The position numbers and the translations under genes were made by a program. Of a stretch of 64,000 nt of DNA, positions 223-16,794 are shown piece after piece (the first letter of the stretch is position 1; each line of letters starts with the position of its first letter). The DNA is from Hyphomicrobiales bacterium (lineage in GTDB: Bacteria; Pseudomonadota; Alphaproteobacteria; Rhizobiales; Beijerinckiaceae): NCBI GenBank assembly GCA_028290285.1, contig JAQGKD010000003.1, forward strand, positions 1 to 64,000, given 5' to 3'. A model generated the notes under the pieces. That model was not told where the DNA came from. It saw only the letters and a program-made list of their open reading frames with translations, and did not search any database.

Positions 223-299
<77 letters not shown>

Positions 300-486: not shown

Positions 487-1527
487 TCATTTTGGTTTGT
501 AAGGCCCTAGCACGCTCACCGCCTTCTCGGCGAAGGTCCGGTCCAGAACGGTCTCGGCGGTGATGGGATGCTCGAGGTAGCCCTGGTCGCGGTAGAATTT
601 GAGGTCGTTTTCGAGGCTCGCCATATCAACCTTCCCGTCCGGATCGACGCCGTTGGGGATCATCTGCTTCAGAAGGTCGGCGTCCTTGAGTGTCATGTTG
701 TCCGAGATCAGCTTGATGATCTCTTCGGAGCCGGGCCCGGTGAGATGTCCGGGAGCAATTGCATCATTGTACACGCGAGCTGCCTTGAGATAGGCGATCA
801 TGAACCTCTGCGCGGTGTCGCGGTGCTTGCGAATGAAGTCGCCGCCGTAAAGAAGTACCGCGACTTGCTGGTTGGGATAAAGCGTATCGTCCGAGAAGCG
901 GACCGCGACGCCCGACTTGACCGCCATGGTGGCGGAAGGCTCCGTGGTAATCGCGGCGTCGATCGCCTTGTTGGAAAATGCAGCGACCTGCTGCGGATAG
1001 CCGAGATAGATGTGATCGACGTCCGCGTACGTGAGCCCGCCTTTCTTGAGCGCCTCATTCAGTGTCGATCCCGGCGATCCGCCTTGTCCGGCCTCGCCGA
1101 CCTTGAGGCCCTTCAGGTCCGCGAAGCTCTTCACCTTGCCGGTCTCGACCAGATCCTTGCGGACGAGGAGCGGCATGTAATTTCGCCCTGGCCCCATTGA
1201 GCCTTTGTCGGCGACGATCTTGATGTCAACGCCACGCGCCACGGCATTGAACAGGCCTGCCGAAGCAGCGCCCGCGACGACGTCGAGCTGGCCCGTGCCA
1301 AGCGGCGCGATCATCTTCGGCCCGCTGTCGAAGGAGACCATCTGGAGCTTGATCTTCTGCTCCGCGAAAAATCCTCGGCTCTGCGCGATGTAGAACACCA
1401 CGTCGCTGACGACGCCGTTCACGCCCACGCGTATCTCATCGTCCGCGCGGACGGGAGCCGCGGCGACGAGTGCGGAAAAGGCCAATGCGAAAGGCATGGT
1501 GAATTTCAGAGTGCTGAGCAAGCGCAT
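487..1527 (-). CDS. ABC transporter substrate-binding protein, NMT1/SsuA type
   Basis: Periplasmic binding protein of the NMT1/SsuA-like family (nitrate, sulfonate, taurine, pyrimidine importers), about 346 residues. It has an N-terminal signal peptide with a hydrophobic run and a cleavage site after VRA, then a bilobed domain opening with DDEIRVGVNG and containing the family-like VAAFSNKAIDAAITTEPSA stretch. The start at 1527 is preferred over the ATG two codons upstream because GAGG lies 8 nt before it. It is the last gene of the catabolic block, 81 nt after the UbiD gene. No ATPase or permease of its own is adjacent: it may share a distant importer or act in sensing. Ligand unknown. Confidence 0.85.
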   Translation of the reverse strand: MRLLSTLKFTMPFALAFSALVAAAPVRADDEIRVGVNGVVSDVVFYIAQSRGFFAEQKIKLQMVSFDSGPKMIAPLGTGQLDVVAGAASAGLFNAVARGVDIKIVADKGSMGPGRNYMPLLVRKDLVETGKVKSFADLKGLKVGEAGQGGSPGSTLNEALKKGGLTYADVDHIYLGYPQQVAAFSNKAIDAAITTEPSATMAVKSGVAVRFSDDTLYPNQQVAVLLYGGDFIRKHRDTAQRFMIAYLKAARVYNDAIAPGHLTGPGSEEIIKLISDNMTLKDADLLKQMIPNGVDPDGKVDMASLENDLKFYRDQGYLEHPITAETVLDRTFAEKAVSVLGPYKPK

Positions 1528-1608
1528 GTTCATTTCCTCGCGTTGTGGACAGCTTTGGTTTTTGTTCTAAGCCGTGTCGTTCCGCAGTTTTGTGATGGAG
1601 ATCGTTGC

Positions 1609-3030
1609 TCACGTGCGCCATCGATCCGAGACGATGGTCTTTTCGAGGTCAACGTCGGCCTCCCCGGGCACTCGGATGCGGTGGAATTTCATCTCCGGCG
1701 CATCGAGGGGGCGCGTGGCGTCGAGCCCCATTTTCGCGCTGACACCATCGTTTGTGGAAGGATCGAGTTTGGAGCCGAGTGCGTTGGCGACAACAACCAG
1801 ATCCCTGTCAGCCTGGAAACGCGTCGACACCGCCCATTCCACTTCCGCGGGATTGTAGATATCCACGTCCTCGTCGACGGCGACGACATGCTTGATGTCG
1901 TAATGAGCTGCGAATGCGCCCAGCATTACGTTCTTCGCTTCGCCTTCGAAGCGCTTCTTCATGCGAACGTAGAGGTGGTAGCGGCACACGCCTCCCGGTG
2001 CGAGGTGGACATCCCGCACGCTGGGAAAGCTGCGTTGAAGCGTCTCGAGAATTGTGGCCTCGCGTGGGATGCCACCGAGGACGAGATGTTCGAGTCCGCC
2101 ACCGACAATCGTGTGGAACAGCGGTTTGCTGCGATGTGTCACGGCGTCCACCGCGATCACGTGTCGCTCGCCCCGCTCGCCGTAATATTGCGGGAATTCG
2201 CCGAACGGCCCTTCAAGGGCGCGCTCGCGTGCGAGCAATCGTCCCTCGATGACGATCTCTGCGTGAGCGGGCACGCGGATTTCGCTGGTCAGGCATTTCA
2301 CGACGTCGAGCGGCGCGCCATGCAGGGCACCGGCGATTTCCAGTTCGTCACAATCCATCGGCACAATTGCTTGCGAGGCGAGAAGCGTCAGAGGATCGAC
2401 GCCGATGACGATGGCAACCGGCAGGTCCTGTCCCTCGTCCTCGGCCATCTGCTGATATCCCAGCGTGTGGCGCGGCAGCAGCAGGGCGCCGAGACGGTCG
2501 GGGCCGGAGACCTGCAATCGATGGATGGCCACGTTCTGAATGCCGGTGCGGGGATTGCGGGTGATCATCAGCCCCGCGGTGATGTAAGGCCCGCTGTCGA
2601 ATTCATTATGTGTCGGGGACGGCAGCAGGCTGTTCAGATCGACCTCGCGATGGATGATCGTCTGCACCGGCGCCTCGCCTGTCTCGTGCCAGGGGAGGGG
2701 CGCCCGCACGGCATCCTGAAATCGGGTGAGCAATTCGTCAGGGGTCACGCCCATGGCTTCCGCGATCCAGTTTCGGTTCGAGAGAAGCCCGGAGATGACA
2801 TCGACACCATGCCCGTCCGGCGCTGGAAAATAAGTTGCGCGTTCGCCGTCCAATCGCTTTGCTATGGCCGCGAGCTCAAACTTCAAGCGGACTCCGGGCC
2901 GTGTGACCGCGAGGCGCTGCGTCTCCGCGAGCCGGTCCAGCCAGTCCCGCAATTGCCGGATCGGCTGGTTGCGCAAGGCCCGCGCCGGGGCCGGAATGGC
3001 CGGAATGGAAGAACCGGGAGCGATCATCAT
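1609..3030 (-). CDS. UbiD family decarboxylase
   Basis: UbiD-type (de)carboxylase of 473 residues, a usual length. The family uses prenylated FMN, made by UbiX, to decarboxylate aromatic or alpha,beta-unsaturated acids. Family stretches seen include SGPYITAGLMITRNP and GPFGEFPQYYG in the middle, then VGGGLEHLVLGGIPRE, which should hold active-site glutamates. No ubiX lies in the window, so the cofactor must be supplied from elsewhere. It follows livF by 41 nt on the same strand and so probably belongs to the upstream operon. Two ATGs overlap at the start (3030 and 3027); GAAGAGG lies just upstream. Housekeeping ubiquinone UbiD is an alternative, but the context favours catabolism. Confidence 0.88.
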   Translation of the reverse strand: MMIAPGSSIPAIPAPARALRNQPIRQLRDWLDRLAETQRLAVTRPGVRLKFELAAIAKRLDGERATYFPAPDGHGVDVISGLLSNRNWIAEAMGVTPDELLTRFQDAVRAPLPWHETGEAPVQTIIHREVDLNSLLPSPTHNEFDSGPYITAGLMITRNPRTGIQNVAIHRLQVSGPDRLGALLLPRHTLGYQQMAEDEGQDLPVAIVIGVDPLTLLASQAIVPMDCDELEIAGALHGAPLDVVKCLTSEIRVPAHAEIVIEGRLLARERALEGPFGEFPQYYGERGERHVIAVDAVTHRSKPLFHTIVGGGLEHLVLGGIPREATILETLQRSFPSVRDVHLAPGGVCRYHLYVRMKKRFEGEAKNVMLGAFAAHYDIKHVVAVDEDVDIYNPAEVEWAVSTRFQADRDLVVVANALGSKLDPSTNDGVSAKMGLDATRPLDAPEMKFHRIRVPGEADVDLEKTIVSDRWRT

Positions 3031-3071
3031 CGAGCCTCTTCATGCGGAACAATTGGGACGCCGGTCGCGTG

Positions 3072-3779
3072 TCAGACTGCGAGCGCCGCCAGGAGCTTTT
3101 GCCGGTCGATCTTGTCCTCTGAATCGCCCGACAATACGATCTGCCCGCGTTCGATTACGATGAAGCGGTCGGTGACGGCGAGAGCCTCATGCACGTTCTG
3201 CTCGACCAGCAACACGATGCAGCCGCGCTCACGCAATTCGCGAATGATGGCGAAAATCTCCGCCACGATCATTGGCGCGAGGCCTTCGCTCGGTTCGTCG
3301 ATGAGCACGAGCTTGGGCTCGCCCACGAGCACACGCGCCATGGCGAGCATCTGCTGCTCGCCACCCGACAGCGTGGTGCCCAGTTGCCTGCGACGTTCGC
3401 CGAGACGGGGGAAGCGGTCGTAGATGCCATCGACCGCTGCGCGCTCCGCGCTGGCCGATCTCCCACGCACCTGCAACAAGCCGAGTTCGACATTTTCCTG
3501 CACCGTGAGGCCGGGCAAAATGCGGCGATCTTCCGCGACCAGACCAATGCCCGCGAGGCAGATGCGGTCCGGAGACAGTCCGTTCAGCACACGATCGCCC
3601 AGCTTGATGCTGCCCGAGGAGGCTTTCACCCAACCCGCGATGGTCTTCAGCAGGGTCGTCTTGCCGACTCCGTTCCGCCCGAAGATGCCGATCACTTCGC
3701 CGGGCGCCGCGGTGAGGCCGATGCCCTGGATGATATGGCTTGTGCCGTAATGGCTGTGCAGGTCGTTGATCGTCAGCAT
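3072..3779 (-). CDS. livF: Branched-chain-type ABC transporter ATPase LivF
   Basis: One of the two ATPases of a HAAT (Liv) importer, 235 residues. It has Walker A GRNGVGKTT, signature LSGGEQQMLAMAR and Walker B LVLIDEPSEGLAP. I chose the ATG at 3779 (MLTINDLHSHYG) over a longer reading because it starts exactly where LivF proteins start and lies one base beyond the livG stop, giving tight translational coupling. It acts at the inner membrane with LivGHM. Given the neighbours, an aromatic acid rather than an amino acid is the likely cargo. Confidence 0.93.
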   Translation of the reverse strand: MLTINDLHSHYGTSHIIQGIGLTAAPGEVIGIFGRNGVGKTTLLKTIAGWVKASSGSIKLGDRVLNGLSPDRICLAGIGLVAEDRRILPGLTVQENVELGLLQVRGRSASAERAAVDGIYDRFPRLGERRRQLGTTLSGGEQQMLAMARVLVGEPKLVLIDEPSEGLAPMIVAEIFAIIRELRERGCIVLLVEQNVHEALAVTDRFIVIERGQIVLSGDSEDKIDRQKLLAALAV

Positions 3780-3780
3780 G

Positions 3781-4524
3781 TCAGGCGTGTCCGAAATAGG
3801 CGGCTTGGACGGCGGGGTCGGCGCGCACGGTTTGCGGAGGACCTTCGGCAAGCCTCCGGCCCTGGTGCATGACGATCACGTGGTCGGACAATTCCATTAC
3901 GAGGCCGATGTCGTGTTCGATGAGCAGGACGGTGACGTCTTCGGTAAGGGATCGGACGAGCGCGGCTGTGTCGGCCGTGTCCGCATGGCTCATGCCTTGC
4001 GTCGGTTCGTCCAGCAGAAGGATCTTGGGTTCGGAGGCAAGGCACACCGCGATTTCGAGGCGACGCTGGTCGCCGTGCGAGAGATTGCCGGCGAGTTCAT
4101 CCCGGCGATGGCTGATGTTGAAGCGCTCAAGCATTTCGTTGGTCTTCGCGAGGGCGCGCGTGGAATAGCGCAGGGGGAGGAATGCGCGAGAGACGGGCTC
4201 CAGAACTTGCGCGGCCAGACGCAGGTTTTCAGCCACCGTCAGTTCCGGAAACAGGTTGGTGATCTGGAACGACCGCGAGAGACCCGCCGCTTTGCTGCGC
4301 TCGGGTGCGAGCCCCGTCATGTCGACGCCGTCTATGATCACCTGTCCGGAGTGGGGCGTCAGCGCGCCGCTGATCAGGTTGAACAGCGTCGACTTGCCGG
4401 CGCCGTTGGGACCGATCACTGTTGTGATGCGGTGCTTGCCGACGTCGAAGGTGACGTCGTCGACCGCTCTCAATCCGCCGAATGCGATGCTGAGGCCGCG
4501 TACCTGCATGATGTCGCTGCTCAT
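3781..4524 (-). CDS. livG: Branched-chain-type ABC transporter ATPase LivG
   Basis: Second ATPase of the Liv-type importer, 247 residues. It has Walker A GPNGAGKST, signature NLSHGDQRRLEIA (the LivG form with D-Q) and Walker B ILLLDEPTQGMSH. The C-terminal tail with YFGHA is typical of LivG. Its start overlaps the livM stop by 4 nt (ATGA), and its stop is followed after one base by the livF start. Confidence 0.94.
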   Translation of the reverse strand: MSSDIMQVRGLSIAFGGLRAVDDVTFDVGKHRITTVIGPNGAGKSTLFNLISGALTPHSGQVIIDGVDMTGLAPERSKAAGLSRSFQITNLFPELTVAENLRLAAQVLEPVSRAFLPLRYSTRALAKTNEMLERFNISHRRDELAGNLSHGDQRRLEIAVCLASEPKILLLDEPTQGMSHADTADTAALVRSLTEDVTVLLIEHDIGLVMELSDHVIVMHQGRRLAEGPPQTVRADPAVQAAYFGHA

Positions 4525-5582
4525 GGCTCTTCGCTCCGGGGTGCGAGGTCAGCGAGCGGAGGAGCGGGGGCAATGGGTTTCGAGACCCCATTCCTCGACC
4601 TCGCGCGGCTTTCGAGCGCACGGATGATAGCGGGGCGTATCAGCCCGATCAGGCCCTTGGGTGCGAACATCACGCAGGCCATGAAGAGCAGGCCGATGAC
4701 GATGAGATGATGCTCCGTCCAGCTGCCGACAATCGACTTGACGACCACCAGCAGAACGCTGCCGTAAATCGGCCCGATCAGGGTTCCGACGCCGCCGAGG
4801 ATGACCGAGATCACTGCGTTTCCGGAGGTGGAGAAAAACATCAGCTCCGGCGAGACGAAACCGCGCAGCATCGGATAGAGCGCGCCGGAAAATCCGGCGA
4901 TCAGGGCTGCGAGCACGTAGCACGACATGCGCGCCGTCCAGACGGAATAACCCAGGAAGGGCACCCGCCGTTCATTGGCCTTGATGGCCGTGAGGACGCG
5001 GCCGAAGGGTGTTTCGAGCAGATAGGCTGTGAACGCGTAGAGGGCCATGATGACCGTGAGCACGATCAGGAAGAAGCCTGTCGGGTTCCCGGCCGAGACG
5101 GAGAAGGGTCCGAGCTGGATGTCGATCACGGGTATGCCGATCATGCCGTCGGACGCGCCGAGGCTGCGCGTGTTGTAGACGACCTTCGCGAGCACCTGCG
5201 CCATGCCGAATGTGATCAGCGCAAAATAGACGCCGCGAACACGGTTCGCGATGAGCCCACCGATGATCGAGGCGACGAGTGTCGCGCCGCCGGCCGCGGC
5301 CATGGCGAGCCAGAAGGAGGGCACGCTCATCAGCACCAGCGCGGATGTGTAGGCGCCGATGCCGAAGTACAGGGCCTGGCCGAGCGAGAGCGCTCCAGAA
5401 TAGCCGAGCAGCAGATCGACGGACAGCGCAAGCCCGGCGACGATCAGGGCCTCGGTGGCGAGCCTCACGTAAAAGGTGTCTCCGACGGAAGCTCCGAAAG
5501 CAGCCAGTGCGAGCGCGGCGGCAACGAGGACAGCCGCGAGAATATGGCTCGCGCGCATGGAGAGTGTCAGGCGATCACGCAT
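4521..5582 (-). CDS. livM: Branched-chain-type ABC transporter permease LivM
   Basis: Inner-membrane permease of 353 residues with about ten hydrophobic segments. It carries the LivM motif LGYSGALSLGQALYFGIGAY near residues 60-80 and the permease coupling region with KANERRVPFLGY. The C-terminal tail is longer than usual and basic/proline-rich (about 30 residues after the last membrane segment). It overlaps livH by 8 nt upstream and livG by 4 nt downstream. Confidence 0.94.
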   Translation of the reverse strand: MRDRLTLSMRASHILAAVLVAAALALAAFGASVGDTFYVRLATEALIVAGLALSVDLLLGYSGALSLGQALYFGIGAYTSALVLMSVPSFWLAMAAAGGATLVASIIGGLIANRVRGVYFALITFGMAQVLAKVVYNTRSLGASDGMIGIPVIDIQLGPFSVSAGNPTGFFLIVLTVIMALYAFTAYLLETPFGRVLTAIKANERRVPFLGYSVWTARMSCYVLAALIAGFSGALYPMLRGFVSPELMFFSTSGNAVISVILGGVGTLIGPIYGSVLLVVVKSIVGSWTEHHLIVIGLLFMACVMFAPKGLIGLIRPAIIRALESRARSRNGVSKPIAPAPPLADLAPRSEEP

Positions 5583-6465
5583 GACCGAGCCTCCCGAAAA
5601 TGCCCTGAGGCCTGAAGACGAGGAAGGCGACCATCGTCCCGAAGACGATCGGATCGGTCCACACAGGTGAGATGACGAGGCTCGCGAGCGCCTGAACCTG
5701 CGTCAGAAGAAGCCCGGCGACGACAGCGCCCCAGATGGAGCCCATGCCGCCCACGATCACGACCGTGAAAGCCAGCAGGATGAAGTCGCGGCCCATGGTC
5801 GGAAAGACCGAATAGATCGGTGCAAGCAGCACGCCCGCCAGCCCTGCGAGCGAAATGCCGAAGGCAAATGTGCCGGCATAGACGAGCGACACGGGCACGC
5901 CGAGCGATGCCGCCATGTTGCGATCGAAGGCGGCCGCGCGAACCATCGCGCCGAGTCGCGTGCGATAGACGACATAGGCGACGGCGAGAACGACCACCGC
6001 GCCGAAGGCGATGAGGAACAGGCGATAGTTTGGAAGGATGATGCCAAGGATCTCGGTCGCGCCGGTGATCGGCGTCGGTGGCCGGAAGGTGTTCGGCCCA
6101 AAGCCAGCTTTCAGCAGATCCTCGACGATCAGGCCGAGGCCGAAGGTCACGAGCAGTGTCGTGACATGCCGGTCGCCGCTGTCGAACACTTTGCGGATCA
6201 GGACACGTTCTATGAACATGCCCAGCGGCAACATCAGAATCGGCACGAGCACGAGCAGGAGCCAGAAGTTGATGCCCGCTGCGCCCAGCGCCAGCGCCGC
6301 ATAGGCGCCGATGGCGTAGAATTCGCCGTGGCTCATGTTGATGACATCGAGCAGGCCGAAAATGATCGTCAGACCGAGCGCGACCAGGATCACGGCAACG
6401 CCGAGCGTCAGGCCGTTCAGCACCTGTGGTGCCAGAACGAATTGCAGATAGTCGAGGGCCGTCAT
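5575..6465 (-). CDS. livH: Branched-chain-type ABC transporter permease LivH
   Basis: Permease partner of LivM, 296 residues, with the LivH hallmark GLLDVINMSHGEFYAIGAY near residue 40 and about eight membrane helices. The reading frame runs further upstream, but ATG 6465 (MTALDYLQ) is the true start: GGGGAGAA lies about 8 nt before it and the family begins here. It is separated from livK by 73 nt, a common place for a processing hairpin or internal promoter. Confidence 0.94.
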   Translation of the reverse strand: MTALDYLQFVLAPQVLNGLTLGVAVILVALGLTIIFGLLDVINMSHGEFYAIGAYAALALGAAGINFWLLLVLVPILMLPLGMFIERVLIRKVFDSGDRHVTTLLVTFGLGLIVEDLLKAGFGPNTFRPPTPITGATEILGIILPNYRLFLIAFGAVVVLAVAYVVYRTRLGAMVRAAAFDRNMAASLGVPVSLVYAGTFAFGISLAGLAGVLLAPIYSVFPTMGRDFILLAFTVVIVGGMGSIWGAVVAGLLLTQVQALASLVISPVWTDPIVFGTMVAFLVFRPQGIFGRLGHA

Positions 6466-6538
6466 CCCATTTTCTCCCCGAGGGCGGGCGCCGTCGCCAT
6501 GGGGATCACACCCATGACGACGGTTTGTGTCGCGGGCT

Positions 6539-7720
6539 TCAGAAGCGCGTGCACTGATCGGGCCCGATGGCCTGCTCGGCGGAGACCTGGTCGACAATGT
6601 CGAACTTGCCCTTGGTGACGCGCACGACATACATCGGCTGCATTGCCTGGTGGTCGCCCGCGCGAATGGTCTTCGCACCCTGCGGGGTCTGCCAGGTGAG
6701 GCCGCGCAAGGCTTCACGCACCTTGTCGGTTTCCGTCGATCCTGCTTTCTCGACAGCTGCCTTGTATGCGAAGAGCACGCCGTAGCTGTCGGCACCGTAA
6801 AGATCCGGGTCAGCCTTGTTGGCTGCGCGGAAGGCTTCCACAAACTTCTTGTTCTCGGGCGAGTCGATCTGTGTGGAATAACCGACGCCGGTCGCAAAGC
6901 CCTCTGCCGCTTGCCCCATGGCACTTATGTTCTGCGAGGTGACGGTCCCGGATGCGCCGACGATGGTGAGGTTCGAGAGCAGGCCAAAGTCCTGCAATTG
7001 CGTGAACAGGCGCACAGTGTCGTTGCCCGCGACAGACGTGTAGACGACCTGCGGACGCGCCGCGCGGATCTGCCCGAAATATTGCGTGTAGTCCTTTGAA
7101 TCGAGAGGCGCGAAGACTTCACCCGAAGATTGGGCGCCGCTCTTTTCCGCGCTCGCCTTGAAGGCGGCCACCGTCGAACGCCCCATCTCGTAATCGGGGC
7201 CGAGATAGAAGACCTTCGAATTCGGCTTCGCCTTTGCGAGCCAGGCCGCGAGCGCAACCGATTGCTGTTCGGCGCGCGCGTTTACGCGAAACATGTTGGG
7301 CGAGCATTTGTCTGTCGTGATCGAATCCGCGAAGGAGACGGTCGTGGCTGCGAGTTTGGCGTTGCGTTCCGCGAGTTGCGCGACGGCGAGCGTCGATCCC
7401 GAATTGACGGTGCCTGTGAGGAAGTCGACCTTCTCCACCTGGAAAAGTTTCTCGGCCTTTTGCACGGCGACGGACGGATTGGCTTCTTCGTCCTCGAAGA
7501 TGAGATCGACCTTGCGGCCGGCGATGCCGCCGGCTGCGTTGATGTCGCGCGCGGCGAGTTCCAGTCCCCAGCGGACCTGCTGGCCGATGGGGGCATAGGT
7601 CCCCGAAAGCGGCGTGACGACGCCGATCTTGATCGGTGTTTGCGCGTTCGCGCTGCTGACGAGTGCCGTCGCGCAGAGCAGTCCTGCGGCAATGGAAGCG
7701 GGTGTGCGTTTGCTGGTCAT
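6539..7720 (-). CDS. Branched-chain-type ABC transporter substrate-binding protein LivK-like
   Basis: Periplasmic binding protein of 393 residues, Peripla_BP_6 family. The signal peptide ends at SSANAQ (about residue 27). The mature protein opens with PIKIGVVTPLSGTYAPIG and has the family motif DINAAGGIAGRKVDLIFEDE. Members of this subfamily often carry aromatic or other carboxylates rather than leucine. It sits between the CoA-pathway enzymes and the Liv permeases and is the natural receptor of this importer. Ligand not predictable from sequence. Confidence 0.92.
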   Translation of the reverse strand: MTSKRTPASIAAGLLCATALVSSANAQTPIKIGVVTPLSGTYAPIGQQVRWGLELAARDINAAGGIAGRKVDLIFEDEEANPSVAVQKAEKLFQVEKVDFLTGTVNSGSTLAVAQLAERNAKLAATTVSFADSITTDKCSPNMFRVNARAEQQSVALAAWLAKAKPNSKVFYLGPDYEMGRSTVAAFKASAEKSGAQSSGEVFAPLDSKDYTQYFGQIRAARPQVVYTSVAGNDTVRLFTQLQDFGLLSNLTIVGASGTVTSQNISAMGQAAEGFATGVGYSTQIDSPENKKFVEAFRAANKADPDLYGADSYGVLFAYKAAVEKAGSTETDKVREALRGLTWQTPQGAKTIRAGDHQAMQPMYVVRVTKGKFDIVDQVSAEQAIGPDQCTRF

Positions 7721-7761
7721 GGTCGTTCCTCTCTGTTTTGCTTTTTTGCTTGGTGGTTTGC

Positions 7762-8556
7762 CTAGTTGCCCTTGAATTTCGGGGCGCGCTTTTCATGGAA
7801 GGCTTCGACGCCCTCGCGGAAATCGTCGGACTGGCGAAGGCGGCTGTAGCAATGCCCCTCGAGTTCGATGGCGATGGAGAGCGATGCATCCTCCGTGTCG
7901 TTGAGAAGCTTCTTGGCCGTGCGCTGGGCAATCGGAGAGAAGGCGCGCAGCTCGTCGACGAGACGGTCGGTGGCCGCTTCGAGGTCGGCATCCGCAACGC
8001 ATTCGGTGGCAATCCCCCAATCGTAGGCTTGCGGGCCGGGGATGCGGCGCGAACGCATCACGATGTCCTTGGTGCGGGTGATGCCGACGATCTTCTGCAG
8101 GCGGGCGGAGCCGCCCGAGCCGGGGATCTGGCCGAGCTTCTGTTCCGGCAAGGCGTAGAAGCAGGTTTCGGAGACAATGCGGAAATCGCAGGCGAGCGAG
8201 ATCTCGAAGCCGACGCCGAACGTGTAGCCGCGATTGGCGACGATGACCGGCTTGGAACAGCGCGCAGGCGCGGCGATGTTCCAGGCGAGCTTGGACACAT
8301 GCTCGGGGCTCGCGTCCAAAAAGCCGCGGATATAGCCGCCCGACGAGAAATGCTGGCCGACGGCGCGCAGCACGATGATGCGCACGCTGGCGTCCTCGTC
8401 GAGCGCCTCGAAGACTTTCCGAAGCTGCTCGCGCTGAAGCATGGAGACCGTGTTCATCGGCGCACGGTCAAGGATGATGTCGGCGCGTTCGCGAGCAGCA
8501 TCGATTTCGACACGGAAGCCGTCGAGATTTTCATAGGTAGAATTCGTGGAGGTCAT
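7762..8556 (-). CDS. Enoyl-CoA hydratase/isomerase family protein
   Basis: Crotonase-fold enzyme of 264 residues. The oxyanion-hole region is QHFSSGGYI (68-76). Both catalytic glutamates of true hydratases are in place: E118 in GVGFEISLACD and E138 in LPEQKLGQIPGSGG. It could therefore hydrate a double bond, or hydrolyse a ring beta-keto-CoA as BadI relatives do. The start at 8556 (MTSTNSTYENLDG) is fixed by homology length; AAGG lies upstream. It follows the CoA ligase gene by 37 nt, which suggests it acts on that CoA ester or a product of it. Confidence 0.88.
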   Translation of the reverse strand: MTSTNSTYENLDGFRVEIDAARERADIILDRAPMNTVSMLQREQLRKVFEALDEDASVRIIVLRAVGQHFSSGGYIRGFLDASPEHVSKLAWNIAAPARCSKPVIVANRGYTFGVGFEISLACDFRIVSETCFYALPEQKLGQIPGSGGSARLQKIVGITRTKDIVMRSRRIPGPQAYDWGIATECVADADLEAATDRLVDELRAFSPIAQRTAKKLLNDTEDASLSIAIELEGHCYSRLRQSDDFREGVEAFHEKRAPKFKGN

Positions 8557-8593
8557 GGTCTGGCCTTGTCGTCTCGTGTTGAAGTGAGTCGCA

Positions 8594-10132
8594 TTACGCG
8601 GCGCGGATCGGGTCTTCTTGTTCGTATTCGCCCGCCACGAGCTGCCGGCGCAGCAGCTTGCCAACGGGGGATTTCGGGATGGCCTTGACGAATTCGATGC
8701 GGCGCGGGCGTTTGAAATTCGCCAGTCCGGATGTGCGGCAATGCTGGTCGAGTTCTTCCGCGCTGACATCGTCCGCGCGCTGGACGAAGGCGACCACGAT
8801 CTTGCCCCAACGTTCGTCAGGAATGCCGACCACAGCGACTTCCAGCACGCCCGGATGCAGCGAGAGGCAGCTCTCGATCTCGACCGGCGAGACATTCTCG
8901 CCGCCGGTGATGATCATGTCGTCGACGCGGCCGGTGACGAAGAGGTCGCCGTCAGCATCCATGAAGCCTGTGTCGCCGGTGAAATACCAGCCGTCGCGCA
9001 GGGACTTCGCCGTCGCGTCCGGATGGCGCCAATAGCCCTCGAATGCCTCGTCGCTGGACGCGAGGGCAACGATCTCGCCTTCCTCACCGCTTGCCGCGTC
9101 CTGATGCGGGGTCGCAGCGCCGAGCGGCACGACGCGGATGTATTGGTTGAGCCCGGAGCGCCCGGCGGAGCCGGGCTTTGCCGCTGCATTCTGATCGATG
9201 GTGAAGGTGTATATTTCCGATGAGCCGTAATGATTGACGAACAAATCGGGCTGGAACGCATCGGTCAATTTTGTCAGGAGACCGTCCGTCATCGAAGCGC
9301 CCGCGAAGCCGAGCTTGCGGACGGAGGAGGTGTCGGTTTTCTCGAAGCGGGGGTGATGGACGACGTCGTGATAGAGCGTCGGCACCAGGTAGAGATTGGT
9401 AATCCGCTCCTGTTCGATGATCTCCAGCGCGCGCGCCGGGTCAAAGCGTGGAAGGCAGACGAAGGTGCCGCCGATCATCGACATCGCCAGAAGCGAGCGC
9501 ACGCCCATGGTGTGATAGAGCGGCATCACGCCCAGCGTCCGCTCGCCGCGCGCATACAGGTTCTGGCCGACATGGGCGAGGGCGGACATGCGCTCCGCAC
9601 GATGTCGGCGTGGTACGCCCTTGGGCCTCGCCGTCGTGCCGGAGGTGTAGAGCATCAGCGACCAGGCATCGGCATCCACGCGCGGCCTGGCCGTCGGTGC
9701 AGGGTCGGCGATCAGGGCCGCGAAGGAGACGTCGCCGCCAGCAGCGCTGCCGACCGGGATGCAGCGAATCTTCGAGGCAAGGGTGCTCTGCGCCACTGCT
9801 TCCGCCGCGACGTCCTCGAACGCCAGCGCCTTCGCCTCTGAATTCTCGAGCACGTAGTCGATCTCGTCAGGCTTTGCGCGCCAGTTCACGGGCGTGACGA
9901 TGAGCCCCGCGAACTGGCAGGCCCAATGGAGGGTCGCTGCTTCCCAGCGGTTTTGCAGCATGGTGACGAGATGATCGCCGGGTCTTAGCTCCAGCCGGTC
10001 GAATGCTGCGACGAGCGATGAAATTTTCGCCAGCCATTCGGCGTAGGTGAGCCGGATGCCTTCGTCGACGATGGCGACCGCGTTGGGATCTCGCGCGACG
10101 CTTGCGACGAAGCTCGTTCCCAGGTCAAACAT
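8594..10132 (-). CDS. AMP-binding acyl/aryl-CoA ligase
   Basis: ANL-superfamily ligase of 512 residues that activates a carboxylic acid to its CoA thioester through an acyl-AMP. Motifs in order: A3 phosphate loop YTSGTTARPKG (162-172), A5 NHYGSSE (300-306), A8 hinge GRVDDMIITGGENVSP (401-416), and the catalytic lysine K492 in PKSPVGKLLR. The start overlaps the stop of the upstream molybdenum hydroxylase small subunit by 8 nt, so the two are translationally coupled. The substrate is presumably the acid that the hydroxylase makes or uses. Benzoate or hydroxybenzoate type ligases are possible relatives. Confidence 0.92.
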   Translation of the reverse strand: MFDLGTSFVASVARDPNAVAIVDEGIRLTYAEWLAKISSLVAAFDRLELRPGDHLVTMLQNRWEAATLHWACQFAGLIVTPVNWRAKPDEIDYVLENSEAKALAFEDVAAEAVAQSTLASKIRCIPVGSAAGGDVSFAALIADPAPTARPRVDADAWSLMLYTSGTTARPKGVPRRHRAERMSALAHVGQNLYARGERTLGVMPLYHTMGVRSLLAMSMIGGTFVCLPRFDPARALEIIEQERITNLYLVPTLYHDVVHHPRFEKTDTSSVRKLGFAGASMTDGLLTKLTDAFQPDLFVNHYGSSEIYTFTIDQNAAAKPGSAGRSGLNQYIRVVPLGAATPHQDAASGEEGEIVALASSDEAFEGYWRHPDATAKSLRDGWYFTGDTGFMDADGDLFVTGRVDDMIITGGENVSPVEIESCLSLHPGVLEVAVVGIPDERWGKIVVAFVQRADDVSAEELDQHCRTSGLANFKRPRRIEFVKAIPKSPVGKLLRRQLVAGEYEQEDPIRAA

Positions 10133-10634
10133 GTTCGTTCATCTCCCGCATGATGGAAGCTGCTTCCTTGATGGCGGCGACGATGGGCGTGTAGCCGGTG
10201 CAACGGCAGAGATGCCCGCCGACCACTTCGCGAATTTCACCTTCGGACGGGTTCGGCTGCTCGCGCAAGAAGGCGTCGGCCGACATGAGAATGCCCGCCG
10301 TGCAGAAGCCGCATTGCAGGGCGTGATGCCGGCGGAAGGCTTCCTGTAGCACATTCAGCCGGTCGGGCGCAGGTGCGAGCCCTTCCACCGTGCGCACGTC
10401 ATGCCCCTCAAGCTGGACGGCGAGCGTCAGGCAGGCGCGCGCGGGCGCACCGTCGATCAGGATGGTGCAGGCGCCGCACACGCCGTGCTCGCAGCCCACA
10501 TGCGTGCCGGTCACGCCGAGCGAATGGCGCAGCGCATCGGTCACCAGCAGCCGCGTGTCCGTTTCAACCTGCACGGACGTTCCGTTGAGCAGGAAGCTGA
10601 CGGTGTGGCGCGCATGAGCGCTTAGGAGCGGCAT
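10125..10634 (-). CDS. Molybdenum hydroxylase small subunit, 2x[2Fe-2S]
   Basis: Iron-sulfur subunit (169 residues) of a xanthine-oxidase-family hydroxylase. The N-terminal plant-type ferredoxin domain has C48, C53, C56 and C68. The C-terminal helical domain has C108, C111, C143 and C145 (LQCGFC and HLCRC), next to the molybdopterin cofactor. Electrons pass from Mo through both clusters to the FAD subunit. Its start overlaps the FAD subunit gene by 13 nt and its end overlaps the CoA ligase gene. All eight cysteines are intact. Confidence 0.95.
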
Positions 10635-11449
10635 GACTTGGCCTCCACGATCATCTTGCGTCCAAGGTCACGAACGAGGTCGCGGCGGTAACGCGCGGTG
10701 GCGTGAATGTCCTCGCGTGCGTCGAGCTCCCAGGCAAAGGCGTTCAGGGCGTCGTCGAGCGCGGAGCCTTCGAGCAGCGGCCACGACCGGCGCTCGGGCA
10801 TGTCTGCGACACCGGCCACGGCGAGATGCATTTGCGTCTCATCCACCACCGCCGCGCAGCCGACGATCGCGAAATCGCCCTGGCGGCGTGCGACTTCCTC
10901 GAAGGCGTAGCCGGTTCCCGCGCGTGCCGTGGGGAAGGCGACGGCCTCGATCAGTTCGTCGTCAGCCTTGGCGGTCGTCATCATCCCGGTGAAAAACTCC
11001 GCTGCCTGGACCACGCGGCTGCGCCGCTTGGAGCGAAGGCGAATCTCGCCCTCAAGCGCGATCAGGCAGAGCGGCACTTCTGCGCTCGGGTCGGCATGCG
11101 CGGCCGAACCGCAGATCGTGCCACGTGCGCGGGTCTGGTAATGGCCGAGCCAGGGCAGGGCGGCCGCCAGCAGCGGTTGCTCCGCACGAAGCGCAGGACG
11201 GGCGAGCAGCTGCGCCTGTCGCACACCGGCGGGAACAAGGATCATGTCGCCTTCGCGCTTCACGTCACGCAGGCCGGGCAGCCCCATGATATCGATGAGC
11301 ACGGCGGGTTTGGCGAGCCGCATGTTGAGCATGGGCATCAGCGATTGTCCGCCCGCCATGATGCGGGCCTCTGCGCCGTGTTGAGCGAGCCCTGCGAGGG
11401 CCTCCTCCAGCGTTGCTGCGCGGATATAGTCGAAGGCAGCGGGTTTCAT
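10622..11449 (-). CDS. Molybdenum hydroxylase medium (FAD) subunit
   Basis: FAD-binding subunit of 275 residues with the two family motifs AGGQSLMPML near residue 32 and TICGSAAHADPSAE near residue 110, followed by the CO_deh_flav_C domain. It lacks the roughly 40-residue insert with four extra cysteines that marks 4-hydroxybenzoyl-CoA reductase, so a reductive dearomatising role is unlikely. The start at 11449 overlaps the large-subunit stop as ATGA, a classic coupling signal. A longer frame upstream is only antisense to coding sequence in the large-subunit gene. Confidence 0.93.
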   Translation of the reverse strand: MKPAAFDYIRAATLEEALAGLAQHGAEARIMAGGQSLMPMLNMRLAKPAVLIDIMGLPGLRDVKREGDMILVPAGVRQAQLLARPALRAEQPLLAAALPWLGHYQTRARGTICGSAAHADPSAEVPLCLIALEGEIRLRSKRRSRVVQAAEFFTGMMTTAKADDELIEAVAFPTARAGTGYAFEEVARRQGDFAIVGCAAVVDETQMHLAVAGVADMPERRSWPLLEGSALDDALNAFAWELDAREDIHATARYRRDLVRDLGRKMIVEAKSCRS

Positions 11450-14388
11450 GCGCGCCTCCCGAAGAGCCGTGCGAGCCAGCCGGGACCGCCGGGCGCAGCG
11501 CGTCGTGCGAGTGCCGCGAAGAACTGCCCGATGATGGCGCGTGCGGCACCGTCGAGCAGACGGCCGCCGATGGCTGCGACTTTCCCACCTACAGCTGCCT
11601 CGTAGTTGTAGGAAATAAGCGTTCCACCCTTCTCGTCGGGAGTGAGGGTGACGCGGCCGGAGCCGGCGCCTGTGCCGAGCGCGCCGACGACGGATCCGGT
11701 CAGGACGGTGCTGCGCGGCGGGTCGAGGTCCGACAATTCGATCTCGGCCTTGTAGCGTCCCTTCACGGGGCCGACGCCGAGCGTGACATCCGCCTTGAAA
11801 TGGGTGGGAGACAGCTTCTGTACCCCATGGCAGCCGGGAATGATGGAGGCCAGCACGTCGACGTCGAGCAGGATGTCCCACACGGCCTGTGGCGGCGCTG
11901 CGACGCGTGCCTCGCCGCTTGCGCGTAGCGTCCGGTCACCGGGTCGTGGCTTTGGCGCCTGCGGCGCGGAATTGGCCGGTGGGCCCCGCTCCTCGCCCGC
12001 GAACATCGCCTTGAGCGCCGCTGGTTTCAGCGGCAACGTGATGTCGGAAACGCCGAGGGCGTCCGCGACCGCATTGGCAATGCACACGGGCGTCGACATG
12101 CAATTGCCTTCCCCGACGCCCTTGGCGCCGAGGGGCGTGAAGGGCGAGGGCGTCTCGATATGCATGATCTCGATATCGGGCGTCTCTGTCGCGGTGGGGA
12201 GCAGATAGTCCGCGAATGTGCCGGTCAGGAAATTCCCGTCCTCGGCATAAGCGAGCTCTTCCAGGAGGGTTGCGCCGAGTGCCTGCGCGAAGCCGCCACG
12301 GATCTGTCCCTCCACCATGCCCGGATGGAGAACGCGGCCGCAATCGTGCATCGTGATGTAGCGATCGATCCGCACGTGCCCGCTCATGCGGTCGATCTCG
12401 ATGCCGCACATATCGAAAATGAAGCTGTGGCACAGCGACGAGTTGACTTCGTCGCCGGGCGTGGGGGCGGTCAGTTCGGGCGGGCTCCAGAAGGCGGTCT
12501 CGCGCAGCGTCGGACCCACGCCATCAGGAATGAGGGCGGGAGACCAATGTGCGAGACCTGCGAGGCGCGCGAAGGGCATGCCGCGTTCATCACCCCCGTT
12601 GCCGACCTTGCCGGCCGCGAAGGTGATCTCGCCGGGCGCACCACCCAGTTGCGCGGCCGCGACCTGTGTCAGCCGATCGCGCAGGCGCGTGGCGGCCAGA
12701 TGCGCCGTGCCCGCGACAGCGGCTGCGAAGCGGCTCGAATAATTGCCCGAGGCAATAGACCAGGCATCCTTGCCGGTATCGAGGTCGGTCACGACGCGAA
12801 TGGCATCGGGCGTGAGGCCGAACACGTCGGCGACGACCTGCGCAAGCACCGTGCGGTGGCCCTGGCCCTGCGGGGTCGATGCAACGTGCACGCTCACCGA
12901 TCCGACGGGATCGATCGACACGGTCGCCGTCGCCTGCGCACCGTTCTTCGGGCCCGCCTTGGCGCGTTCCGCCGCAGTGAGAACCGTGGTTATATAGCCC
13001 ATGTTGGAGACGCTGGGCTCGACGATGGCAGCGAAGCCGATGCCATAGAGCTTGCCCGCGCGGCGGGCCTCGTCGCGGCGCCTCAGAAGATCCGCCAGAC
13101 GGCCATCGCCGAGCGCCGTTTCCATTGCTTGCTGGTAATCGCCGGAATCGTAGAGCGAGCCCGACGCGCTGCGATAGGGAAAAGCGTCCTTCCGAATGAG
13201 ATTGCGGCGTATGACGTCGAGCGGATCGAGATCCAGTTCGATTGCGATGCGCTGCATCAATCGCTCGAGCGCAAAATAAACCTGCGGGCCGCCGAAGCCC
13301 CGAACGAGCCCCGTCGGCGCCTTGTTGGTAAGCGCGATGCGATTGCGGATCGCGACATTCCTGACGTCATAGGCGCCGGTCATGTTGCCGTGCATCCGGT
13401 ACAGCGTGGCGGGTTCTGGCGCGCGCGGGTAGGCGCCGCAATCCTCGAGCTGGTCCCAGTCCAGCGCCGTCACGCGGCCGTCCTGCGCGACAGCGGCCTT
13501 CAGCGTTGTGGTGCGATTTGTCGAGGACGTGGCGGCGATCAGATGCTCGAGCCTGTCCTCGATCCACTTGACGGGACGCCCGCTGATGCGTGCTGCAATG
13601 CCCATCAGGATCGCGTAAGGCGCGACGCCCTGCTTGACGCCGAAACTGCCGCCGGAGTCGGGCGGCATGCGCATCCGCAGCCGGTTGCCGGGCACCTTGA
13701 GCGCACGCGCCATCACGGCATGAATACTGAAAGGTCCCTGGAAATTAGCGAGAATGTCATAGGCATCCTCATGCGGATCGTATTCGGCGACCACGCCGAA
13801 GGTTTCCATCGGCGCGCCGGTGTTGCGGGGATAGCGGATCGAGATCTCGACGGTGCGATGAGCCTCCGTGAAGGCGCGCTCCGGGTCGCCGTAACGGAAA
13901 TGGCGGTCGCTGACGAGGTTGGAGCCGATGCCGTCGTGCAGGACTGGAGCGCTCGGCTCGATGCTATCCAGGGGATCGACGACAGGACGCCGTGGGGAAT
14001 AGGCGACCTCGATCAGGTCGAGCGCGTCTTCTGCGAGATAGCGGGTTTGCGCAACGGCAATGGCGACGGGCTCGCCCACGTAGCGGACGCGGTCGACCGC
14101 CATCGGCCAGTTTTCCGCGGAGATCTTGAGGCCCGCCACCATCGGCGTCGTCAGGGCGGCAACGTCCTTGCCTGTGATGATGGCGACGATGCCGGGCAAG
14201 GCAGCTGCCGCTTTGGTCTCGATGCCGAGAACGTCGGCGTGCGCATGTGAAGAACGGAGAATGGCCGCATGAAGCGTGCCCGGGCGAACGCCGAGATCAT
14301 CGACGAAGCGGCCACGTCCGGAGAGCAGCGCGGCATCCTCGACGCGCGGTAACGACTGGCCTGTCCATGCAACGCGTTCGGCTCGCAC
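11446..14388 (-). CDS. Molybdenum hydroxylase large subunit fused to CoxG-like SRPBCC domain
   Basis: Molybdopterin-binding catalytic subunit, about 980 residues. Residues 1-800 follow the CoxL/aldehyde-oxidoreductase fold: LPRVEDAALLSGRGRFVDDL at the N-terminus, GLVRGFGGPQ in mid-domain, and AKGVGEGN holding the catalytic glutamate. The CO-dehydrogenase loop AYxCSFR is absent. After a proline-rich linker the last 164 residues form a CoxG-type domain (ASGEARVAAPPQAVWDIL, then VGPVKGRYKAEIEL). CoxG is normally a separate protein that recruits the enzyme to the membrane. The GTG start at 14388 has GGGAG about 9 nt upstream; an ATG 90 nt earlier has no ribosome site and adds non-family sequence. 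Confidence 0.9.
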   Translation of the reverse strand: MRAERVAWTGQSLPRVEDAALLSGRGRFVDDLGVRPGTLHAAILRSSHAHADVLGIETKAAAALPGIVAIITGKDVAALTTPMVAGLKISAENWPMAVDRVRYVGEPVAIAVAQTRYLAEDALDLIEVAYSPRRPVVDPLDSIEPSAPVLHDGIGSNLVSDRHFRYGDPERAFTEAHRTVEISIRYPRNTGAPMETFGVVAEYDPHEDAYDILANFQGPFSIHAVMARALKVPGNRLRMRMPPDSGGSFGVKQGVAPYAILMGIAARISGRPVKWIEDRLEHLIAATSSTNRTTTLKAAVAQDGRVTALDWDQLEDCGAYPRAPEPATLYRMHGNMTGAYDVRNVAIRNRIALTNKAPTGLVRGFGGPQVYFALERLMQRIAIELDLDPLDVIRRNLIRKDAFPYRSASGSLYDSGDYQQAMETALGDGRLADLLRRRDEARRAGKLYGIGFAAIVEPSVSNMGYITTVLTAAERAKAGPKNGAQATATVSIDPVGSVSVHVASTPQGQGHRTVLAQVVADVFGLTPDAIRVVTDLDTGKDAWSIASGNYSSRFAAAVAGTAHLAATRLRDRLTQVAAAQLGGAPGEITFAAGKVGNGGDERGMPFARLAGLAHWSPALIPDGVGPTLRETAFWSPPELTAPTPGDEVNSSLCHSFIFDMCGIEIDRMSGHVRIDRYITMHDCGRVLHPGMVEGQIRGGFAQALGATLLEELAYAEDGNFLTGTFADYLLPTATETPDIEIMHIETPSPFTPLGAKGVGEGNCMSTPVCIANAVADALGVSDITLPLKPAALKAMFAGEERGPPANSAPQAPKPRPGDRTLRASGEARVAAPPQAVWDILLDVDVLASIIPGCHGVQKLSPTHFKADVTLGVGPVKGRYKAEIELSDLDPPRSTVLTGSVVGALGTGAGSGRVTLTPDEKGGTLISYNYEAAVGGKVAAIGGRLLDGAARAIIGQFFAALARRAAPGGPGWLARLFGRRA

Positions 14389-14520
14389 GTGCGTTTCTCC
14401 CGGTGACGCTCGTTTTCGGCGTCTGACGAGAATGTGCTTCGTGTCTACGGCCAGCGCCAGACCGAGCGGTCTCGCCATTTACCGAAAAGTCTCAAAAAGC
14501 GTGGCTCCCCCGCCTGACGT

Positions 14521-15366
14521 TCAACTGCCCAGTCTGGCCGTCGCCCGGAATTCGCTCGGCGCGACACTGCAATGGTCGCGAAAGAAGCGCGTGAAATGGG
14601 CCTGTGCGGTGAAGCCGAGACGGTCGCCGATCGCGCCGAGCGTCTCGTCGGTCGAAATGAGCGCCCCCACGGCGAGTTCGACCTTCAGGACATTCAGGAA
14701 GACATGCGGGGTGACGCCTGTCGATCCCTCGAAGATTCGGAAGAAATGCGCGCGGGACATGCCGGCTTCGCGTGCCAGATCCTCGATGCTGAGCTTCGCG
14801 GACGGATCGTTTCGCATGAGCGAGATGGCCCGGCGCACCCGCCAATCGACTGCGCTCGTGCGCGAAAGCTCGCGCAGGGACGAGCCCACCGTTCGCCACG
14901 GTGTGAAGCGCTCGATCACCGCGAGCATGAGTTCCGAAAGCAGCCGCTCCTGATGGGTTTTCGCGCCGGGTTCGTGGACCATTTCCGCCGCAAGATCGAG
15001 GACGAGCTTGCGGATGTGCGCTGTCGTCTCCCCGCCGGATTGCTCAAAGAAACCAGGCGCGCCGCTTGCCGACCAGTTGGGACGAAATGCGCGCAGCCAG
15101 TCGGGTTCTATGTAAAGAGCCAGGATCAAGGCGTTCTCGCGCCTGGGATCGTGCACATAGGCATGCGGTTCCCATGCGTTGATGAACACGGCCAGATCAT
15201 TCGTCAAGGACACGACCGTGTCGCTCACGAGGAACTGGGTGTCGTCGCCATCGACCTTCAGGAGCACATGGCAATGTGGATGCGCATGCCGGACGAGGCT
15301 CCGGTCCATGTCCAGCAGGGCCACCCGGCCGAAGGCGCCGTGCGCAATTCGTAATGCGTCAGACAT
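14521..15366 (-). CDS. AraC family transcriptional regulator
   Basis: Regulator of about 281 residues with an N-terminal cupin ligand-binding domain (HAHPHCHVLLKVDG, then AWEPHAYVH) and a C-terminal double helix-turn-helix (SIEDLAREAGMSRAHFFRIF and LGAIGDRLGFTAQAHFTRFF). It is the first gene of the catabolic block and lies 132 nt before the molybdenum hydroxylase large subunit, in the same direction. It is therefore the likely ligand-responsive activator of the operon. The start is uncertain: ATG 15366 and GTG 15399 both lack a strong ribosome site. Confidence 0.88.
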   Translation of the reverse strand: MSDALRIAHGAFGRVALLDMDRSLVRHAHPHCHVLLKVDGDDTQFLVSDTVVSLTNDLAVFINAWEPHAYVHDPRRENALILALYIEPDWLRAFRPNWSASGAPGFFEQSGGETTAHIRKLVLDLAAEMVHEPGAKTHQERLLSELMLAVIERFTPWRTVGSSLRELSRTSAVDWRVRRAISLMRNDPSAKLSIEDLAREAGMSRAHFFRIFEGSTGVTPHVFLNVLKVELAVGALISTDETLGAIGDRLGFTAQAHFTRFFRDHCSVAPSEFRATARLGS

Positions 15367-15585: not shown

Positions 15586-16791
15586 TCACGCCGTAAGCTG
15601 TGTGGCCGCCCCCATGACGCTGCGGATCTGCCGTGCGATCACGACTTCTTCGTTGGTCGGAATGACCCAAGCCGTCACGTCGGAGCGGGTCGAGATCAGC
15701 CGTTCCCCGGCCACGTTGGCGGACTCGTCCAGCGTCAGGCCTGCCCAGGAGAGCGCGGCGATCACTTCGGCGCGTGTCGCGACGTCGTTCTCACCTATGC
15801 CACCTGTAAAGACGAGAGCATCAAGCCCCCCGAGTGCCGCCGTCAGCGAGCCGATTTCGCGTGTGATGCGATAGACGAACAGATCGATCGCGCGCCTCGC
15901 ATCAGCCTTTTCAGCGGCATTGGCTCGCAGGGTCCGCATGTCGTTCGACAGGCCGGACACTCCGAGCAACCCGGATCTGGTGTAGAGAATGTTCTCGGCT
16001 TCCGCGGGCGTGAGCTTCATCTCGCGCAGCATGTAGAAGATCGCGCCGGCATCGATCGACCCGCATCGCGTTCCCATCGGAAGACCATCCAGGGCGGAAA
16101 ACCCCATGGTGGTGGCGATGCTGACGCCCTTGTTTAGAGCGCAGAGGCTGGCGCCGTTTCCCAGATGCGCGACGATCACCCTGCCGCTCGCGAGCCGCGG
16201 ATCGGTGTCCGCGAGGCGCGAGGCGATGTATTCGTAGGAGAGGCCGTGAAATCCATAGCGCCGCACACCCCTGTCGCGCATGTCCTTCGGAATCGCGAAC
16301 ATGGTTGCGACATCGGGCTGTGTTCGATGAAACGCCGTATCGAAGCAGGCGACTTGCGGGATGGAGGGAAGCCGTCGGTGCACGATCCTGATCGGCGCCA
16401 GGTTGTGCGGCTGATGCAATGGCGCGAGCGGGATGAGAGTGTCGAGAGACGACAATACGGATTCATCGACCAGAACCGGCCCGGTAAAGGTTTCGCCGCC
16501 GTGGACGACCCGGTGCCCGACGGCCACGAGCTCGCGCCCATTCCTGTGCGCACGAAGCCATGAGACGAGGTGCATCACCGCGCCCTCCTGCCCCAACTTC
16601 TCATCTGAGGCCCAAGACGTTTCGTCCAGTGTCTTCCCAGCACCGTCCCTGACCAAGAAACGCGCGGCGCTCCCGAGGCCTTCGAAAAGCCCCTTGAAAA
16701 TCACGCACGGATCCATCGCGTTCTGGGCGTCGAAGATCTGGAACTTCAGGCTCGACGACCCTGCATTCAGGACGATGAAGACGGGTGTCAT
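15586..16791 (-). CDS. ackA: Acetate kinase
   Basis: Acetate/propionate kinase of 401 residues, usual length. It interconverts acetyl phosphate and ADP with acetate and ATP in the cytoplasm. Motifs: VLNAGSSSLKFQIF at the N-terminus, HRVVHGGE with the substrate-binding arginine near residue 94, FDTAFHRT, YGFHGLS, HLGNGAS and TGGIGEN. The start ATG 16791 has AAGGTG 6 nt upstream. It lies 3 nt after the phosphotransacylase gene and forms a pta-ack operon with it. Confidence 0.96.
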   Translation of the reverse strand: MTPVFIVLNAGSSSLKFQIFDAQNAMDPCVIFKGLFEGLGSAARFLVRDGAGKTLDETSWASDEKLGQEGAVMHLVSWLRAHRNGRELVAVGHRVVHGGETFTGPVLVDESVLSSLDTLIPLAPLHQPHNLAPIRIVHRRLPSIPQVACFDTAFHRTQPDVATMFAIPKDMRDRGVRRYGFHGLSYEYIASRLADTDPRLASGRVIVAHLGNGASLCALNKGVSIATTMGFSALDGLPMGTRCGSIDAGAIFYMLREMKLTPAEAENILYTRSGLLGVSGLSNDMRTLRANAAEKADARRAIDLFVYRITREIGSLTAALGGLDALVFTGGIGENDVATRAEVIAALSWAGLTLDESANVAGERLISTRSDVTAWVIPTNEEVVIARQIRSVMGAATQLTA

Positions 16792-16794
16792 GGC

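Follow-up and report, generated by a model that had tools for sequence, protein, structure and literature searches.

A probable hmf-type furan-acid operon with two candidate ABC receptors in a Hyphomicrobiales genome

Introduction

Which compound is broken down by the thirteen-gene run at positions 487-15366 of contig JAQGKD010000003.1 (Hyphomicrobiales bacterium, Beijerinckiaceae, assembly GCA_028290285.1), and how does that compound enter the cell? The run lies within the first 64,000 nucleotides of the contig, the whole stretch analysed here and referred to as the window. A first-pass annotation had described it as a complete block for an imported aromatic or heteroaromatic acid and knew of no published pathway made up of precisely these genes. 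The same set is, in fact, that of the hmf pathway, for example hmfA-hmfF with araC in Pseudomonas umsongensis GO16. On the basis of gene content, gene order, likeness to hmf clusters and residue H296 of the HmfF-type enzyme, we conclude that the block is very probably an hmf-type operon for the furan acids 2-furoate and 2,5-furandicarboxylate (FDCA). The pathway is already known, and the window holds a further member of it with a particular importer arrangement.

Results and Discussion

The molybdenum hydroxylase, ligase and crotonase block recurs in relatives

In order of transcription the run comprises an AraC-family regulator, genes of the HmfA-B-C-D-E types, a Liv receptor with LivH-M-G-F, a UbiD decarboxylase and an NMT1-type receptor (Table 1). 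All thirteen lie on one strand and belong to the families first assigned to them, as confirmed by Pfam, which also recognizes a previously overlooked CoxG domain at the C-terminus of the Mo large subunit (residues ~855-994). The succession HmfABC, HmfD, HmfE found in the window is the same in the relatives listed. The latter were gathered from named genomes, where a scan with the Mo subunit confirmed 89 places, the best 80 of which correspond to 79 loci, and from plasmid records (246 matched, 25 listed, six examined with annotation), giving 85 named loci; they were chosen by their likeness to the window, so that shares among them are not population estimates. The full block (Mo subunit, CoxG, FAD and Fe-S subunits, ligase and crotonase) is present in 76 of the 85, and the search for the same gene order in other genomes, proposed in the first-pass annotation, thus indicates an association beyond chance.

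The Mo large subunit of the window is 54-79% identical to those of the 79 loci, while in named hmf blocks the HmfD-type ligase is 58-80% and the HmfE-type crotonase 64-90% identical; AraC matches (41-82%) adjoin the block in many relatives. The solved chains nearest to the ligase are those of 4-chlorobenzoate CoA ligase. A plasmid of Paraburkholderia aromaticivorans displays the arrangement LysR-UbiD-UbiX-HmfABCDE-GMC-MFS, and Pseudomonas mendocina (L105) that of HmfABCDE-BenE-XdhC-AraC, with a gene content like that described for Pseudomonas pseudoalcaligenes (PMC6678421). In a midpoint-rooted FastTree phylogeny of 106 Mo subunits, with placements read from the topology, the window sequence falls inside the hmf clade, together with Liv-type loci of Bosea and Xanthobacter tagetidis; 15 further Mo hydroxylases from genomes of its genus and order stand elsewhere in the tree. 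The hmf clade also contains a 57% identical paralogue from contig C111 of the same genome and its like in another genome (G028). Nearly all relatives for which that end of the Mo subunit is covered have the CoxG fusion, which is missing in three (L031, L032 and L109).

Several observations concern these relatives in their own right. The HmfA relative without the CoxG fusion on C111 (G000:C111:36412-38817, also L032:14418-16901) is 57-58% identical, and a similar gene occurs at L031:10923-13289. Contig C111 further encodes three UbiD proteins, a metallo-beta-lactamase-fold protein, an amidohydrolase, an alpha/beta hydrolase, an HpaB-type protein and TRAP components; this gene set is possibly another heteroaromatic pathway. 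The genome harbours at least 13 Mo-hydroxylase large subunits (13 of 13 scored candidates matched) and two XdhC_C genes elsewhere. An alphaproteobacterial metagenome-assembled genome (L109:8625-14669) carries an hmf-like cluster in which a Mo subunit devoid of CoxG is followed within ~10 bases by a ligase, with no match to an FAD or Fe-S subunit in the cluster. On a Bosea vestrisii plasmid (L035:18061-20986) the annotation splits the Mo subunit into two overlapping genes, so that it may be frameshifted.

The UbiD enzyme is of the HmfF type

Among solved structures, the best match of the window UbiD is 6h6v (453 bits, E 1e-134), presumably from Pelotomaculum, and the next different enzyme is the indole-3-carboxylate decarboxylase AnInD (7p9q, 207 bits). 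Structure 6h6v is that of HmfF (PMC8988006). Residues R152, E254, E259, H296 and R304 (6h6v numbering) are all kept in the window UbiD, as they are in all 28 UbiD proteins that share a locus with an hmf block (27 named records plus L029). According to our alignment, H296 would correspond to the residue numbered H297 in PMC7976604, where it is described as key to furan specificity. Eight distinct UbiD paralogues of the same genome were checked, out of 14 further UbiD places: all eight keep R152, E254 and E259, and none has H296, which is likewise absent from AnInD. The hmf block of the window is thus linked to a UbiD of the FDCA type. A UbiX partner is encoded in the genome as well, as a single match (62% identical) on contig C112, outside the block; in Cupriavidus basilensis and several relatives UbiX lies in the cluster. 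In total, the genome has 15 UbiD-family places versus this one UbiX match.

The UbiD evidence bears directly on the choice of substrate. The ring atom is not fixed by sequence alone, and the combination of Mo hydroxylase, ligase and crotonase would suit any five-ring heteroaromatic CoA ester, so that a parallel pathway of the same chemistry might serve pyrrole-2-carboxylate or thiophene-2-carboxylate. We consider this unlikely: the UbiD is of the HmfF type and has H296, whereas the match to PA0254 (4ip2), the solved enzyme for pyrrole-2-carboxylate, reaches only 78 bits, and in one relative the block is accompanied by UbiX, GMC and MFS genes, as it is in hmf clusters already described. Moreover, PA0254 has Asn at the place matching H296 (PMC7976604).

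Two further identities were rejected on equivalog scores. The Mo subunit is CoxL-like, carries a CoxG domain and in one relative is publicly annotated as carbon monoxide dehydrogenase (CODH), yet a CODH operon bordered by ligase, UbiD and transport genes that have nothing to do with it is very improbable in view of the score of the CO_dehy_Mo_lg model (436 of the 991 bits required), the motif TGLVRGFGGPQ in place of the AYxCSFR of form I CODH, and the ligase and crotonase that accompany the Mo subunit in the 76 loci mentioned above. The 4-hydroxybenzoyl-CoA reductase (Hcr) route likewise joins a UbiD-type enzyme (phenylphosphate carboxylase), a CoA ligase and a member of the Mo-hydroxylase family, but scarcely comes into question, with the Hcr models far below their cut-offs (alpha 369/995, beta 65/405, gamma 157/258 bits) and the phenylphosphate carboxylase beta model at 109/469 bits.

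Assignment to an hmf-type furan-acid operon is not free of difficulties, and the following points weigh against it. The names HmfA-E depend on gene order and on HmfF. NCBIfam yields general UbiD and Mo-hydroxylase names only. H296 is a single residue, and R304 is common to six of the eight paralogues checked. The C111 paralogue lies in the hmf clade, yet neither a ligase nor a crotonase is matched next to it, so that likeness to HmfA alone is no proof of a CoA-ester substrate. Sixteen of the 21 Liv-type loci discussed below are devoid of a UbiD of the HmfF type within the stretch covered. Finally, no clear upper-pathway genes were detected in the genome: the best GMC match is 39% identical over about half of the protein, and no aldehyde dehydrogenase was matched at 1e-80 in a search run without a positive control. 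The upper-pathway genes, which oxidise 5-hydroxymethylfurfural (HMF) and furfural, are needed to use HMF; furoate and FDCA do not require them.

Proposed pathway

The first-pass annotation had placed hydroxylation before thioesterification and decarboxylation, whereas in the hmf pathway as described (PMC6678421, PMC12064950) UbiD acts first, followed by the ligase and then by the hydroxylase on the CoA ester. By analogy with the described systems, 2-furoate and FDCA would be imported by the Liv-type ABC importer, perhaps also by the NMT1 receptor with a distant transporter. HmfF, a prenylated-FMN-dependent UbiD enzyme, would in the first step convert FDCA into 2-furoate, from which HmfD would form 2-furoyl-CoA; HmfABC would then hydroxylate the ring with oxygen from water, the lactone would open spontaneously or through some hydrolase, and HmfE would convert the CoA ester into free 2-oxoglutarate. 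No gene is assigned to lactone opening in PMC6678421, and the one given in PMC12064950 is putative. No such hydrolase is encoded among the thirteen genes and the sole UbiX match lies on another contig, so the block cannot be called complete; its description as one catabolic block in which a Mo hydroxylase, a CoA ligase and a UbiD act on a heteroaromatic acid brought in by its own importer is nevertheless supported.

The substrates of the importers, the role of CoxG and the ligand of AraC are our inferences. CoxG of CO dehydrogenase reportedly passes electrons to quinone (PMC13240472); the domain fused to HmfA may similarly hand electrons to the quinone pool, which makes a built-in quinone link plausible. 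The AraC regulator would sense a furan acid, and P. pseudoalcaligenes R1D no longer used furfural once AraC was inactivated (PMC6678421).

A Liv-type importer is associated with hmf loci of separate groups

We classified the importers of the 85 named loci within 6.5 kb after HmfE (the TTT type being counted anywhere in the locus). A full Liv set occupies this slot in 21 loci, BenE in 35, an MFS carrier in nine and a TTT-type receptor in four, and seven have none; the remaining loci have no HmfE in the covered stretch (seven) or are too short (two). The receptors of the 21 Liv-type loci are 72-91% identical to that of the window. Liv-type loci are spread over the Bosea group, Azospirillum and Dinoroseobacter, groups that stand apart on the Mo-subunit tree, and this spread links the Liv importer with the pathway. 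The recurrence, judged from sequence, speaks against an unrelated importer of ordinary amino acids, one of the cases that the first-pass annotation had named as its refutation. NCBIfam cut-offs for branched-chain amino acid importers were missed by LivG (222/362 bits), LivF (189/441) and the receptor (104/477); urea-importer models score higher for these three proteins, yet miss their cut-offs as well. The solved receptors nearest to the Liv receptor are distant (8tg1 with 158 bits, then urea-type chains). No Liv-type importer in an hmf cluster turned up in the literature searched; Donoso 2021, cited for hmf clusters by PMC12064950 and outside that search, may mention one, and we cannot say whether the arrangement is unreported.

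The NMT1 receptor and a possible shared transporter core

In five Xanthobacter loci (L053, L056, L057, L060 and L061) a UbiD, an NMT1 receptor 58-65% identical to that of the window and an ABC ATPase precede AraC-HmfABCDE. Of the five, L057 was checked by Pfam, and there the ATPase is followed by a BPD_transp_1 permease. The position of the receptor between UbiD and ATPase in all five links it to hmf. In the window neither an ATPase nor a permease follows the receptor. That the contig end truncates a second ABC system was rejected, since the 486 bases beyond the receptor are taken up by genes for a tRNA and 5S rRNA.

The genome contains a single close ATPase (70%) and a single close permease (61%), adjoining each other on contig C138 beside open reading frames that we take to be hslO and argF; no receptor of the window's NMT1 family was found on that contig. 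Nine further NMT1 receptors, 39-48% identical to that of the window, lie on other contigs, and the 12-18 kb surrounding each of them contain no close core-type ATPase or permease; around two (L142 and L141) only weak ATPase matches occur (31% and 22%). A tenth, more distant receptor (33%, contig C24) is, by contrast, accompanied by an ATPase and a permease. L138, one of the nine, lies directly next to a further UbiD gene and a gene of the FAD-binding monooxygenase type. For the others, the neighbours recognized (aldolase-type, luciferase-like, acyltransferase, TctC) pointed to no such catabolic link, with no family at 1e-8 for four of the ten proteins. The genome (~5 Mb in 145 contigs) is 93.85% complete with 7.08% contamination, so links between contigs, such as C47-C138, could join different organisms.

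The distribution was then viewed across 25 genomes of the genus (this one and 24 others), with cut-offs of E <= 1e-70 for the receptor and E <= 1e-85 for the core ATPase; at most 51 and 61 candidates were scored per genome, so that larger counts may be low. The receptor family is present in 21 of the 25, with 1 to 20 matches each, and the core ATPase in 20, of which 19 have a single match and one has two; the match in G004 is only 56% identical. The core was detected in 18 of the 21 genomes with receptors and in two of the four without. G010, G014 and G018, with 3, 5 and 6 receptors, have no core at the cut-off, which either weighs against a shared core or reflects incomplete assemblies. Searched at the same cut-offs, 16 genomes from other families of the order yielded neither receptor nor core. 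Where contiguity is high, in two genomes of 2 and 9 contigs, none of the five receptors has core-type genes within ~6 kb, nor do the cores have a receptor within that distance; in G006, by contrast, a receptor stands next to the core. The structural model of the window's receptor (mean predicted local distance difference test score, pLDDT, 85.9) matches folds of the SsuA/TauA/Thi5 kind, and no ligand is indicated.

Tentatively, the NMT1 receptor might bind FDCA within a genus-wide hub-and-spoke scheme of import, in which one distant ATPase-permease core would serve many solitary receptors, each placed beside catabolic genes for its ligand; we hold this to be possible but rather doubtful. A comparable case of one ABC core with several receptors is DppBCDF with DppA1-5 of Pseudomonas aeruginosa (PMC4206461, PMC12728205). 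That system handles peptides with five receptors, whereas genomes of the present genus carry up to 20 NMT1 receptors and sharing is putative.

Two NMT1 genes or gene groups were noted in passing. Five receptor matches of the same family stand in a row at G011:C632:7003-12224, and the window itself encodes another NMT1-type ABC system (permease, ATPase and receptor) of a different branch at 55268-57911, the ATPase of which is 44-45% identical to the Xanthobacter one.

The question left by the first-pass annotation is thus settled in favour of a furan-acid pathway rather than an undescribed one, and the remaining interest lies in transport. Specific FDCA transporters are scantly described (PMC12064950), and the two ABC receptors genetically tied to the pathway are candidates for furan-acid uptake that could be of use to work on FDCA plastics. 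The hub-and-spoke scheme, if true, would provide an FDCA uptake route as well as a rule for the substrates of many orphan receptors.

Layout and borders of the gene run

Start codons of the thirteen genes (Table 1) are our choices among candidate starts. Overlapping stop and start codons, previously said to link most of the genes, are present at five of the 12 junctions, so that "most" was too strong; the largest gap does not exceed 75 bp. The run ends naturally at 487, since the contig start is occupied by the end of an rRNA operon (5S rRNA and tRNA-Met). Upstream, at 15586-17784, lie an acetokinase-family gene and a phosphate acetyl/butyryl transferase gene. A horizontal island was rejected on composition, with no signal in GC content (0.639 in the cluster versus 0.641 in the rest of the window).

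Table 1. Genes of the run and features at the adjoining contig end.
Feature	Position	Strand	Basis
AraC-family regulator	14521..15366	-	Pfam HTH_18/HTH_AraC
HmfA-type Mo large subunit, fused CoxG	11446..14478	-	Pfam MoCoBD_1/2, Ald_Xan_dh_C, COXG
HmfB-type FAD subunit	10622..11449	-	Pfam FAD_binding_5, CO_deh_flav_C
HmfC-type 2Fe-2S subunit	10125..10634	-	Pfam Fer2, Fer2_2
HmfD-type acyl-CoA ligase (putative furoyl-CoA synthetase)	8594..10132	-	Pfam AMP-binding
HmfE-type crotonase-fold enzyme (proposed 2-oxoglutaroyl-CoA hydrolase)	7762..8556	-	Pfam ECH_1
Liv-type receptor (proposed furan-acid receptor)	6539..7720	-	Pfam Peripla_BP_6
LivH permease	5575..6465	-	Pfam BPD_transp_2
LivM permease	4521..5582	-	Pfam BPD_transp_2
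LivG ATPase	3781..4524	-	Pfam ABC_tran, BCA_ABC_TP_C
LivF ATPase	3072..3779	-	Pfam ABC_tran
HmfF-type UbiD decarboxylase (putative FDCA to 2-furoate)	1609..3030	-	nearest solved match 6h6v
NMT1-type receptor (proposed FDCA receptor)	487..1533	-	Pfam NMT1_2, NMT1
tRNA-Met (cat), faces operon end	223..299	+	ARAGORN, Rfam
5S rRNA, cut by contig end	1..108	+	Rfam RF00001

Comparison with known systems

The enzyme set is that of hmfABCDE with hmfF/hmfG in Cupriavidus basilensis HMF14 (Koopman 2010, as related in PMC6678421 and PMC12064950), with which the window shares the Mo hydroxylase ABC, CoA ligase D, E and UbiD F. In contrast to HMF14, for which the carrier HmfT1 is described, the window block is devoid of UbiX and HMF oxidase and contains an ABC importer. 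P. umsongensis GO16 (PMC12064950, Table 2) likewise has hmfA-hmfF and araC in one cluster, but its cluster also includes the carriers HmfI and HmfT, the upper-pathway genes psfA and psfG and UbiX (psfC). P. pseudoalcaligenes CECT 5344 resembles the window in possessing hmfABCDE with an AraC regulator; a BenE carrier and PsfD take part there, and no UbiD is seen in the cluster as presented in the available text of PMC6678421, whereas the window has a Liv importer and UbiD.

Closer in arrangement are plasmids of Bosea vestrisii and Dinoroseobacter shibae, on which AraC-HmfABCDE-Liv follows the order of the window from AraC to LivF, with identities of 79% and 60%, respectively, for AraC and 91% and 73% for the Liv receptor. 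UbiD and UbiX stand separately nearby on these plasmids, whereas in the window UbiD and the NMT1 receptor come directly after LivF; the Bosea run has one extra PaaI-type gene. The other end of the window run finds its counterpart in Xanthobacter (L053, L056, L057 and L061, with L060 partly covered), where the order is UbiX-UbiD-NMT1 receptor-ATPase-AraC-HmfABCDE. As in the window, UbiD is followed by the NMT1 receptor; unlike in the window, an ABC ATPase (with a permease in L057) comes after the receptor, and an MFS carrier is present instead of a Liv set.

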